A program made the translations under genes and the position numbers. DNA of 64,000 bases from Solibacteraceae bacterium (lineage in GTDB: Bacteria; Acidobacteriota; Terriglobia; Bryobacterales; Bryobacteraceae), in NCBI GenBank assembly GCA_026984795.1, contig JALSRK010000024.1, positions 124,001 to 188,000 of the forward strand, given 5' to 3'. Below, in pieces: positions 6,889 to 24,410 of this stretch. The notes below the pieces were generated by a model. The model was not told where the DNA came from. It searched no databases and saw only the letters and a list, made by a program, of their open reading frames with translations. Numbering within the stretch: the first letter of the stretch is position 1; each line of letters opens with the position of its first letter.

Positions 6889-7014
6889 CAGCGATGGAAG
6901 GCACAGCGCCACACTGCCAGCCTCGGGAGAAGCCGGTCGTAACACTTACCGCGGGGGCGGGTAACCCCACCGGCCGCGGGCGTCGTCGTGACAATCGGTA
7001 AGGGGGTATTCGAA

Positions 7015-8517
7015 GTGAAGGGGAAGACCATCGCGGCAATCGCCGCCGCAGCTCTCGGGTTGGCGCCACTGACGTGGCCCCAGCCCCCGCGCGCCGGCGG
7101 ACCGGAACAGGCAAGGTTGGAGGCGCGCTTCGAGGCCACCGGCCTGAAGCCGGGCGTTCCGTTTCCGGAGGTCAGTATCTACGACGAGGAGGGCAAGCCG
7201 TTCCACACCCGCAGCCTCAAGGGCAAGTACACGGTGATCGTGAACGGCTGCCTCACTTGACCGCCCTTCCGTAGCAAGGTCCCCAGGTTGGAGACCGTGT
7301 TCGTCGATTACGCTCCGAAGGGCGTGCAGTTCTACTACGTCTACAAAGCGCTGGCGCACCCCGGGCTGCACGGCTACGTCGGCCCGGTGACGCTCGAAGA
7401 GCGGCTGATGCACATCCGCGAGGCGAAACGGACGCTGGGCACGAAGATCCCCTGGCTGTGCGACAACATGAACAACGATCTGAAGCACGCCACCGGGGAT
7501 GCGAACAACTCCGAGTTCGTCCTCGACCCGGACGGCAAGATCGTCGTGATGCGCCTGTGGAGCGATCCGGATGCGCTGCGCAAGGATCTGGAACGGCTGG
7601 TGGGTCCGGTTGAAAAACCGACCACCGTGGCGGACCTCGACCTGAAGGTGGAGCCGCCGCCGAAGACCGCGCCCACCGGCGTCGTCCCCCGCCTGCGGAT
7701 CACCGAGCCGATGCGGCCGCTCAAGGCCGAGCCGCTGCCGAGCAAGCACCCCTTCTACGTGAAGCTCCGGGCCGAGGCGGACCGGGCGCTGCTGGGCAAC
7801 GGCAAGGGCAAGATGTACCTGGGCTTCCACCTGGATCCGCTGTACGGAGTGCACTGGAACAACCGCGTGGCGCCGGTACGCTACGAGTTCTCGTTGCCGG
7901 AAGGCATCCGGATCGAGCCGGCCGAAGGAGAGGGGCCGAAGGTGGAGCAGGAGGCCGACGCGGATCCACGGGAGTTCCTCCTCGACGTCGATCGTGGCGA
8001 TTCCACCGAGCCGGTCACCGTGGCTTTCCACTATTTCGCCTGCGACGAGAAGATGTGCATTCCGGTCTCGCAGAACTACCGGATCCGGTGGGAGGTGGAT
8101 CGCGACGGCGGCCGGGCGCGGCGGGGCCCGCCGAGGCGCGGGCCGGCCCGGATGATCGAACGGATCATGGAGTCCGACGCCGATGGCGACGGCCGGATCA
8201 GCCGCGAAGAGGCTCCCGAGAGGCTGCTGCGCCGCTTCGACCGGATGGACGCCGACGGCGACGGCTACATCACCCGCGAGGAGCTGGAGAAACGAATGCG
8301 CCGGCCCCCGATGGGAGGCCCGCCGCCGGATCTGGTGGAACGAATCATGAGCGCGGACGCCGACGGCGACGGCCGGGTGAGCCGCGAAGAAGCTCCGGAA
8401 ATGATGCTCCGGCGGTTCGACCGGATGGATGCGGACGGGGACGGCTACGTCAGCCGCGAAGAGGCCGAGCAGGCCGCCGAACGCATCCGCCGGCTTGGGC
8501 GGCCGCCGCGGCGATGA
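7015..8517 (+). CDS. Secreted deiodinase/redoxin-like selenoprotein with DsbD-like region and four EF-hand loops (UGA at 7258-7260 read as Sec)
   Basis: The frame is continuous from GTG 7015 (Shine-Dalgarno AAGGGGG at 7000-7006) to TGA 8515-8517 if the in-frame TGA at 7258-7260 encodes selenocysteine, giving about 500 residues with Sec82. Order: signal peptide (residues 2-25); thioredoxin-like redoxin domain with NGCLTUPPF (CxxU, like the SCTUPPF centre of iodothyronine deiodinases), followed by FYYVYKALAHPG, the deiodinase/redoxin strand-helix; a DsbD-alpha-like beta region ending in C343-x4-C348; and four complete EF-hand loops (DADGDGxI/VSREE type) starting near residues 387, 412, 448 and 472. 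A hairpin with loop AGGUU follows the UGA, and selB is encoded 14 kb away. Seen: frame, motifs, hairpin. Inferred: Sec insertion, export and a calcium-linked redox role. The alternative, termination at the UGA, would give an 81-residue fragment lacking the active site. Confidence 0.87.
7278..7296 (+). promoter_or_regulatory. Putative bacterial SECIS hairpin of the redoxin selenoprotein
   Basis: This imperfect hairpin begins 17 bases behind the UGA codon: a GGUC/GACC lower stem, a C-A mismatch, two C-G pairs and an AGGUU apical loop starting 24 bases after the UGA. Distance and a G-containing short loop fit bacterial SECIS elements bound by the SelB C-terminus, and the loop resembles that of E. 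coli fdhF. Folding was done by eye. Confidence 0.65.
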
Positions 8518-8592: not shown

Positions 8593-8967
8593 GAGCCTGC
8601 CGGACGGGCAGCCGCCCGAAAGGGAGGAAAGTCCGGTCTCCGCAGGGCAGCGTGCCGGCTAACAGCCGGGGAGGCGCTCTCAAAGGGCGTCTCACGGAAA
8701 GTGCCACAGAAAACATACCGCCGAAGGGGCCGCAAGGTCCCAGGCAAGGGTGAAAAGGTGCGGTAAGAGCGCACCGCGGCCGCAGTAATGCGGCCGGCAG
8801 GGCAAACCCCACGCGGAGCAAGACCAAATAGGGGAGGATGGAGTGGCCCGCTCCGCTACGACTCCCGGGTAGGTCGCTAGAGCCGTCCAGCAATGGGCGG
8901 CCCAGATGAATGGCTGCCGCCCCGCCTCGGCGGGGTACAGAAACCGGCTTACAGTCCGGCAGACTCT
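8593..8967 (+). ncRNA. rnpB: RNase P RNA (bacterial class A)
   Basis: This is the catalytic RNA of ribonuclease P, which matures tRNA 5' ends. The 5' strand GAGCCTGCCGGAC (8593-8605) pairs with GTCCGGCAGACTC (8954-8966) to make P1. Between them are the universal GAGGAAAGTCCGG block, the CAAACCCCACGCGGAGCAAGACCAA region and the TACAGAAACCGGCTTACAG-type 3' core. The length of about 375 bases is usual. It lies between the selenoprotein gene and a small reverse-strand gene; no clear terminator follows. Confidence 0.95.
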
Positions 8968-22538: not shown

Positions 22539-24410
22539 TTAGAGAACCACTCGCGCGTCGCCCTCCCGGCGGGTGACGCGCCGCCGGTCCAAGTACTCGA
22601 GCAGTGGGATGGCGTACTTGCGGGAGACGCCCGTCCATTCCTTGAACTCCGGCACCTTGAAGCGCTCCCCCTTGTGCCGCCCCATCAGATCCAGCAGGCC
22701 GCGGATGGCGCTCTCGTGGAAGACCAGCTCGTCGCCTACCTTCACGAGCTTTCCTTCGCGAAGCAGGACCTGCAGCAGGTTGCGGGCCCGCGCGGCATCG
22801 AGGCCGGAACGAGCCAGAACCTCCTTGACAGCCGGCGCCGCCAGGCCGGCCCGCCGGAACGCCGCTTCGATCTTGCGCAGCGCCTCTTCTTCCTCGCCGC
22901 GCAGGCGGATCTGGTGCGAGGCGAGCCGCACGATGTCGCCTTCGGCCACGAGGTCACGCTCCCGGGCCAGAATCGCATCCAGGTAGAAGGCAGGCGCCCC
23001 GGGCAGCTCCCGCGAGCGGAGCTCTTCTTTGAGCATGCCGGGGGTGAGCGGATGGACCCGGTGGTGCTCGCCCAGAGCGGCGCGGACTTTGGCGGCGTGG
23101 GCGGCATAACGCTCGCGGTCCACCAGCCACGCCGACGGCCCCTCGAACAGTAGGAGCCGTTCGTCGCCCGCCGCCGCTTCGCGAATCTCCCCGGCCAGCA
23201 GCCCGGTGCGGGCCACCAGGGAATCGGCTCCCAGACCGTACTCGGCTTCGGCCACGAGCAGAGCGACCCGGTCCGCCCGGGAGCCGGATTCGAGAGCGCG
23301 CAGGCGGCGGACAGCCTCGGCGCGGCGGATTCGCGGCGGCGGGGCGATCTCGAGCACTTCTCCGCCGCCGATCGTCACCACCGGGGAGAACATGCGTACG
23401 ATGAAGCGGTCGCCCGGCAGCAGCAGCACCGGCTCCCGCAGGAGAAACCGGACCAGCGCCGTTCCGCCTGATCCCACGAGGTCGCCTTCCAGCAGGCGCG
23501 CTTCGGCGATCACCTCGGCCGTGCCGGCGTGGAAGTGCACCGGCGCGCGGTGCTTCAGCGGCCGCGCCCCGGCCAGCAGGTGGAAGCGCGCTTCGACGCC
23601 TTGGGTGGGCTGGAACAGCCCGGGCCGGGTGAGCGTCATGCCGCGCGCCACCCGGTCCGCCGCCGGTCCGGCGAGGTTCAAGGCGGTGCGCTGGCCGGCC
23701 ACCGCCCGTTTCGCCGCCTCGCCATGCACCTGGATGCCCCGGACGCGGACCGTCTCCCCCAAAGGCTGAATCTCGACCTCATCTTCGACGTGGACCGCAC
23801 CGGCGATGAGGGTGCCGGTAACCACCCGCCCGAAGCCTTTCATTACGAACGAGCGGTCCACCGGCAGACGGAAGGGCCGGGAAACGTCCTTTTGCGCTAC
23901 CCGGGAAGCGGCCTCCGCCAGACGCCGCTTGAGCTCGTCGATCCCTTCCCCGGTCCGGGCGCTCACCGCTACCACGGGCGCCGCTTCGAGAAACGATCCG
24001 CGCACGAACTCCCGCACCTCGAGACGCACCAGCTCGAGCAGCTCCGGATCTACGAGATCGACTTTGGTGAGAGCGATCAGGCCGCTCGAGACGCCTAGCA
24101 GGCGGCAAATGTCGAAGTGCTCCCGGGTTTGTGGTTTGATGGACTCATCGGCGGCGACCACCAGCAGGACGATATCGACCCCGGCCGCCCCGGCGAGCAT
24201 CGTCCGGACGAAGCGCTCGTGGCCGGGCACATCGACGAAGCCTAGGCGCAGATCCGGGCCGAGATCGAGGTGAGCGAAACCGAGTTCGATCGAGATGCCC
24301 CGGCGCTTCTCCTCGCTCAGCCGGTCCGTGTCGATGCCGGTCAGGGCACGCACCAGGGCCGTCTTGCCGTGGTCGATATGGCCCGCAGTTCCGACGATGA
24401 TGTTGCGCAT
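22539..24410 (-). CDS. selB: Selenocysteine-specific elongation factor SelB
   Basis: A 623-residue translational GTPase. It begins [20 protein letters not shown] (G1), then [23 protein letters not shown] (G3) and TKVDLVD (G4), followed by EF-Tu-like domains 2 and 3 ([20 protein letters not shown]). The C-terminal half from about residue 370 is a chain of winged helices ending in [27 protein letters not shown], the SelB-specific RNA-binding module that grips the SECIS hairpin. It delivers Sec-tRNA to UGA codons. An in-frame ATG at 24425 is an alternative start. Its start overlaps that of the divergent VWFA gene. Two UGA-containing redox genes lie in the window, but selA, selD and selC were not found. 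Confidence 0.96.

Follow-up and report, generated by a model that had tools for sequence, protein, structure and literature searches.

A predicted CxxU selenoprotein of deiodinase-like descent, with a cysteine-pair domain and EF-hands, in a Solibacteraceae genome

Deiodinase-like selenoproteins of bacteria were described in 2005 from the Sargasso Sea (PMC1088965) and figure in a 2026 inventory with the motif UxxC (PMC13188914, Table 1), so that the earlier note on the present DNA was right to call such proteins already known. A fusion of a deiodinase-like selenoprotein to an EF-hand pair (PF13499) appeared in 2021 (PMC9402790, Fig. 2B), and the same work contains a Prx-like U/CxxC selenoprotein fused with the DsbD_N-type domain PF11412 (PMC9402790, Fig. 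2D). EF-hands and a deiodinase domain are also combined in the protein family model NF038285, termed “deiodinase family protein”. Here we analyse a gene of a Solibacteraceae bacterium (Acidobacteriota) that lies in a stretch of 64,000 nucleotides of contig JALSRK010000024.1, referred to as the window, and compare it with these systems.

Like the Sargasso Sea/GOS proteins, the window gene combines a bacterial UGA in a deiodinase-related thioredoxin fold with a bacterial SECIS element, Sec and Cys homologues and a probable redox role; unlike those proteins with their UxxC, its family carries CxxU followed by UPPF and a conserved Ig-like Cys-pair domain, a separation made by description. The earlier note had taken fusion to extra domains as the distinguishing mark. 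Both an Ig-like Cys-pair middle domain and four EF-hands are indeed present, and the middle domain keeps that role, whereas a fusion with EF-hands was already on record (PMC9402790). As far as descriptions can be compared, the 2021 EF-hand protein, described without reference to a middle domain, may be an incomplete view of the same family; full-length members of the window family have a middle domain, and their EF-hands are C-terminal, N-terminal or missing. The second 2021 protein likewise joins a Sec redoxin to a DsbD_N-type domain, but it has UxxC with no EF-hands mentioned, whereas the window protein has CxxU and EF-hands. Both parts of NF038285 are matched by the window protein, but with 66 bits against a cut-off of 250 and with the order of modules swapped. 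A true NF038285 member (527 bits, Cys form FTCGPF), which ends in a C-terminal peroxidase-related/CMD-like part, is encoded at L072 6772-9000 (plus strand) in genome G771, near the Cys homologue L062 discussed below. In the literature searched we found no description of a three-module CxxU family consisting of redoxin, Cys-pair domain and EF-hands; it thus appears to be new, or, if the 2021 sequences belong to it, to have gained a new member only.

The elements concerned with decoding of the gene are as follows (positions are those of the window).

7000..7006, plus strand: Shine-Dalgarno-like AAGGGGG, presumed from the sequence, 8 nt 5′ of the GTG start
7015..8517, plus strand: selenoprotein gene, 500 codons including the Sec-UGA, then a TGA stop (reading frame and full-length homologues)
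7249..7251, plus strand: Cys79, presumed resolving partner of Sec in CxxU (nearly invariant in the family alignment)
7258..7260, plus strand: predicted Sec82 codon UGA (reading frame, and TGA kept in relatives)
7278..7296, plus strand: bacterial-type SECIS hairpin GGUC-C-CC(AGGUU)GG-A-GACC (fold, synonymous constraint, pair counts)
22548..24401, minus strand: selB, Sec-specific elongation factor (373 bits against a cut-off of 242)

The TGA at 7258-7260 is the single in-frame internal stop of 7015-8517, and only when it is read does the coding frame (7015-8514, closed by TGA 8515-8517) form one gene, as the earlier note had proposed. Without readthrough the same DNA yields two open reading frames, of 90 amino acids (6988-7260) and 409 amino acids (7288-8517). 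The UGA stands in the active-site motif NGCLT-U-PPF, where Cys79 precedes Sec82 by three residues and gives the CxxU pair that had been anticipated. A bacterial class A RNase P RNA (284 bits) is located directly 3′ of the gene, at 8596-8967 on the plus strand.

A standard gene caller formally sees just these two open reading frames, which would fit a true stop, the gene then being either a pseudogene or two coding units, a truncated protein of 81 residues and a separate frame behind it. Against this stand the relatives. Among 396 genomes searched from the same phylum, ten besides the host's have Sec genes of full or nearly full length, 12 in all. A genome scan, which returned close relatives only, and a search of Planctomycetota added the Sec relatives L009, L010, L011, L060 and L061. 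In total, 17 other relatives from the host's phylum and Planctomycetota, 47-60% identical, carry TGA at the aligned codon, far beyond chance, within GCLT-U-PPF or near variants of it (PAF, PPY). Homologues that consistently stop here had been named in the earlier note as fatal to its claim, and the relatives do not do so. Both Sec and Cys homologues had been expected, and one Cys form was found, L062 of genome G771, which has TGC in GCLT-C-PP. In a tree where many deeper forks are unresolved, L062 falls within the Sec forms, with L060 as its neighbour at support 90/89.

Matches confined to EF-hands were left out of the relatives (e.g., L043, L048, L049, L051 and L053-L058), and L012, with ACG at the site, was rejected as a chance pattern match and no homologue. 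More distant deiodinase-like genes of the same phylum (L044, L045, L046 and L050) bear TGA in FGSIT-U-P or FGAIT-U-PPY and make up a separate group of predicted selenoproteins. Another distant relative, L042 of genome G351, is 29-33% identical, reads GGCT-U-PPW and apparently holds repeated copies of a DsbD-alpha-like domain.

A bacterial SECIS element is recognized as a hairpin with a G in its small apical loop (PMC1088965), and such a hairpin, made by codons +7 to +11, occurs just downstream of the UGA. Its AGGUU loop, already pointed out in the earlier note, occupies 7285-7289, 24 nt 3′ of the UGA. Stability alone is moderate, with z of -2.1 for a 27-nt fold and -1.0 for a 48-nt fold, the latter not unusual for the composition. 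When 16 sequences were compared, codons +7 (GTC), +8 (CCC or TCC) and +11 (GAG) never differed synonymously, while synonymous differences averaged 0.58 per codon over 244 codons. For the whole gene, synonymous variation is lowest in windows starting at +5 to +8, with the 7-codon window from +6 lowest of all. Pairing holds in 88.9% of cells for the seven base pairs, versus 33-52% when the pattern is slid, and the outermost stem pair is seen as CG, GC, AU and UA across relatives. In the Cys form L062 the corresponding codons read ATC GCC GGC CTC GAA and the same fold is no longer formed. The comparative evidence for a SECIS element is therefore strong and the single-sequence fold modest, both being judged from sequence. 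Within the loop, codons +9/+10 of 18 sequences combine in a restricted way, GGT always being followed by CTG, and AGT, AGG or CGG by another codon; the sequences are scattered over the tree, and a coupling inside the loop is possible.

The selenium machinery was looked for in the host genome and in those of the relatives. The earlier note had placed selB in the window, where it lies on the minus strand (see above), and had regarded a lack of selA, selC or selD as decisive against Sec decoding; with these three present, the host genome holds all of selA, selB, selC and selD. Its tRNA-Sec scores 79 bits with anticodon TCA and its SelA 420 bits, and its SelD (L024, G000:C52:108696-109616, minus strand; 372 bits) carries UGA in frame at the UxxK position where it is usually found and is itself a predicted selenoprotein. 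Relatives' genomes were scored on SelA as the machinery gene. Among the 15 further genomes that have the Sec gene, 12 contain SelA; it was not found in G266, G140 and G080, which are fragmented and 72, 91 and 75% complete, respectively. Neither of two genomes of the same family that have no Sec gene contains SelA, nor was a SelA match found in G771, the source of the Cys form, which is a single contig of 7,276,092 bases. A replacement of Sec by Cys together with machinery loss would give the pattern of L062, since this form nests among Sec forms and SelA is missing from its genome. As comparison across the family shows, Sec is the residue selected for, with Cys as its substitute.

In genome G676 (L070) the Sec gene adjoins selA, followed by a selB-like open reading frame, and in G351 (L071) a distant relative adjoins selA and a selD-like one, the selB and selD assignments being made by eye. 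These neighbourhoods suggest co-transfer of the selenoprotein with its machinery. Next to the Sec gene of G676 there is also an uncharacterised open reading frame (L070 1962-2672, minus strand), without any Pfam match, in which a DsbD-alpha-like domain and then the start of a redoxin can be seen by eye.

Given the same TGA in 17 relatives, the Cys form, the conserved SECIS and the complete machinery, it is near certain that SelB and tRNA-Sec, together with the hairpin that follows, would insert selenocysteine at UGA 7258-7260, as the earlier note had claimed. On the same evidence a true stop at this codon is very improbable. Reading of the UGA as another amino acid such as Trp, or its suppression as a nonsense codon, would also account for the open frame, and for that frame only; the gene's own terminator is TGA, the relatives show no substitute other than Cys, and SECIS and Sec machinery are present, which makes this reading negligible. 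We thus rejected both the stop and the Trp assignment on the conserved TGA, the Cys substitute, the TGA terminator, the SECIS and the Sec machinery.

The protein would comprise the following parts.

7015..7083, plus strand: probable signal peptide (MKGKTIAAIAAAALGLAPLTWPQ), recognized by eye; similar N-termini in L009, L010 and L030; low model confidence over residues 1-25
7147..7605, plus strand: thioredoxin-fold redoxin/deiodinase-like domain, residues 45-197 (Pfam, PDB profile, Foldseek)
7678..8127, plus strand: Ig-like beta-sandwich middle domain, tentatively DsbD-alpha-like (AF2 pLDDT 88.7; Pfam DsbD_N in relatives)
8041..8043, plus strand: Cys343, first of the middle-domain Cys pair (invariant, 13/13)
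8056..8058, plus strand: Cys348, second of the middle-domain Cys pair (invariant, 13/13)
8176..8211, plus strand: EF-hand loop 1, DADGDGRISREE (sequence, Pfam)
8248..8283, plus strand: EF-hand loop 2, DADGDGYITREE (sequence, Pfam)
8356..8391, plus strand: EF-hand loop 3, DADGDGRVSREE (sequence, Pfam)
8428..8463, plus strand: EF-hand loop 4, DADGDGYVSREE (sequence, Pfam)

The N-terminus resembles a signal peptide by eye, in line with the secretion suggested earlier, and the protein is probably exported and extracytoplasmic. The domain behind it spans Sec82, so that the sequence downstream of the UGA carries on the same fold, again as the earlier note had it. On residues 45-181 Pfam finds AhpC-TSA, Redoxin and, weakly, T4_deiodinase (PF00837), the last with 14.5 bits and below the gathering cut-off of 27. 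Across the family 20 of 20 members match T4_deiodinase (best E 3.1e-6), and 18 of 20 match AhpC-TSA and Redoxin. The deiodinase link rests on the family profile, which finds deiodinase 3 first in the PDB (E 3e-8), then ResA-type proteins. The AlphaFold model (pLDDT 86.4) matches the folds of DipZ, ResA and TlpA in Foldseek, and PHROGs gave no match. The redoxin/deiodinase relationship proposed in the earlier note is thus borne out, and a deiodinase-like ancestry is very likely.

Resemblance to deiodinase 3 (PDB 4tr3/4tr4) extends to the thioredoxin fold, the T-U-PPF centre and the conserved AHP, the profile alignment covering both U-PPF of the active site and AHP, and His115 is invariant in the family alignment. 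These points would favour a true reductive dehalogenase acting on aromatic iodine or bromine, as the animal deiodinases do. However, deiodinase 3 is an animal membrane enzyme with no EF-hands, whose Cys stands at -2 and whose EEAH holds the Glu of the EAH motif, whereas in the window protein the Cys is at -3 and that Glu is replaced (KALAHP), a replacement found across the close family; bacterial relatives have also been argued to serve another function (PMC1088965). A dehalogenase is accordingly improbable. Of the match to the deiodinase centre SCT-U-PPF asserted in the earlier note, T-U-PPF in a thioredoxin fold stands, and the position of the Cys (CLT-U rather than SCT-U) and the EAH Glu do not. 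“Deiodinase-like” would then refer to descent and fold and not to activity: iodothyronine deiodination is unsupported, with the EAH Glu missing and the Cys at -3 instead of -2, and a deiodinase of the thyroid-hormone type is unlikely.

The closest predicted fold is that of the ResA/TlpA thiol:disulfide oxidoreductases (TM about 0.8 on target), which are likewise extracytoplasmic but have CxxC in place of CxxU with a deiodinase-type UPPF and fused modules. Where redoxins use Sec for catalysis, it is often the peroxidatic residue. This, together with the AhpC-TSA and Redoxin matches of the family, speaks for a periplasmic seleno-peroxidase in which Cys79 is the resolving residue of the CxxU redoxin and the middle domain is structural. 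Against it, the peroxiredoxin signature PxxxTxxU (PMC13188914) is not in the gene, which has GCLTU with Thr at -1; ResA and TlpA come first among the fold neighbours and 1-Cys peroxiredoxins later; and the invariant Cys pair of the middle domain is left without explanation. We regard the peroxidase as unlikely, yet well ahead of a dehalogenase, and peroxide as the main alternative substrate.

Both Cys343 and Cys348 are kept by each of the 13 aligned members, among them the Cys form, and in the AF2 model they face each other on paired strands of a hairpin. C103 and C109 of nDsbD are placed likewise on paired hairpin strands (PMC7347389). The one DsbD of the host genome has an alpha-domain motif C-x4-C with the same spacing as Cys343/Cys348, and Pfam DsbD_N (PF11412) is matched by 9 of 13 members (best 2.8e-6), the window protein itself having no match. 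A profile of the middle domain gave chance matches only in the PDB, Foldseek returned Ig-like folds without clear relation, none at E<0.001 and no DsbD among the top ones, and hhalign against two DsbD alpha domains aligned only the Cys hairpin, at a probability of 7%. In view of these three comparisons we keep the DsbD-alpha-like assignment as weak and tentative.

The EF-hands are four canonical 12-residue DxDxDGxIxxxE loops (PF13202, E 2.9e-19), found by Pfam from residue 402 on. They follow the redoxin domain in the window protein, L009 and L030, precede it in L031, L032 and L034, and are missing in several relatives (L036, L037, L039); since their position shifts from C- to N-terminus or they are absent, we consider them accessory.

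Taken as a whole, the best explanation, and a probable one, is an exported Sec protein, a CxxU reductase that may be recharged via its Cys-pair domain by DsbD. Sec82 and Cys79 would make up the CxxU redox pair of a thioredoxin domain of ResA/deiodinase type, the homology of the domain being observed and its chemistry presumed, and most likely reduce an oxidised substrate outside the cytoplasm, such as a disulfide, a peroxide or another two-electron acceptor. Sec would attack the substrate and Cys79 resolve the selenium-substrate adduct in a selenenylsulfide cycle, while the Cys343/Cys348 pair may hand electrons from membrane DsbD to the selenenylsulfide. This electron route, from DsbD through the Cys-pair domain to a periplasmic Sec/thiol reductase, is plausible but somewhat short of probable. 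The EF-hands would bind calcium, with a role in stability or in extracytoplasmic attachment and not in catalysis. More speculative still would be a self-contained extracytoplasmic selenium relay, in which an undescribed family joins a CxxU deiodinase-type domain to its own DsbD-alpha-like reductant domain, is tied to calcium by EF-hands and turns from Sec to Cys where the machinery is lost.

The family is probably under-annotated, since the gene comes out of standard gene callers as two. It provides a clean example of a SECIS element that is detected by synonymous constraint and lost along with the Sec machinery, and it extends the bacterial relatives of the thyroid-hormone deiodinases by a well-supported family. 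Since its Cys-pair domain seems to be a dedicated one and a Cys form occurs naturally, the family would be a tractable one in which to study the function of such proteins and the reasons for retaining selenium.
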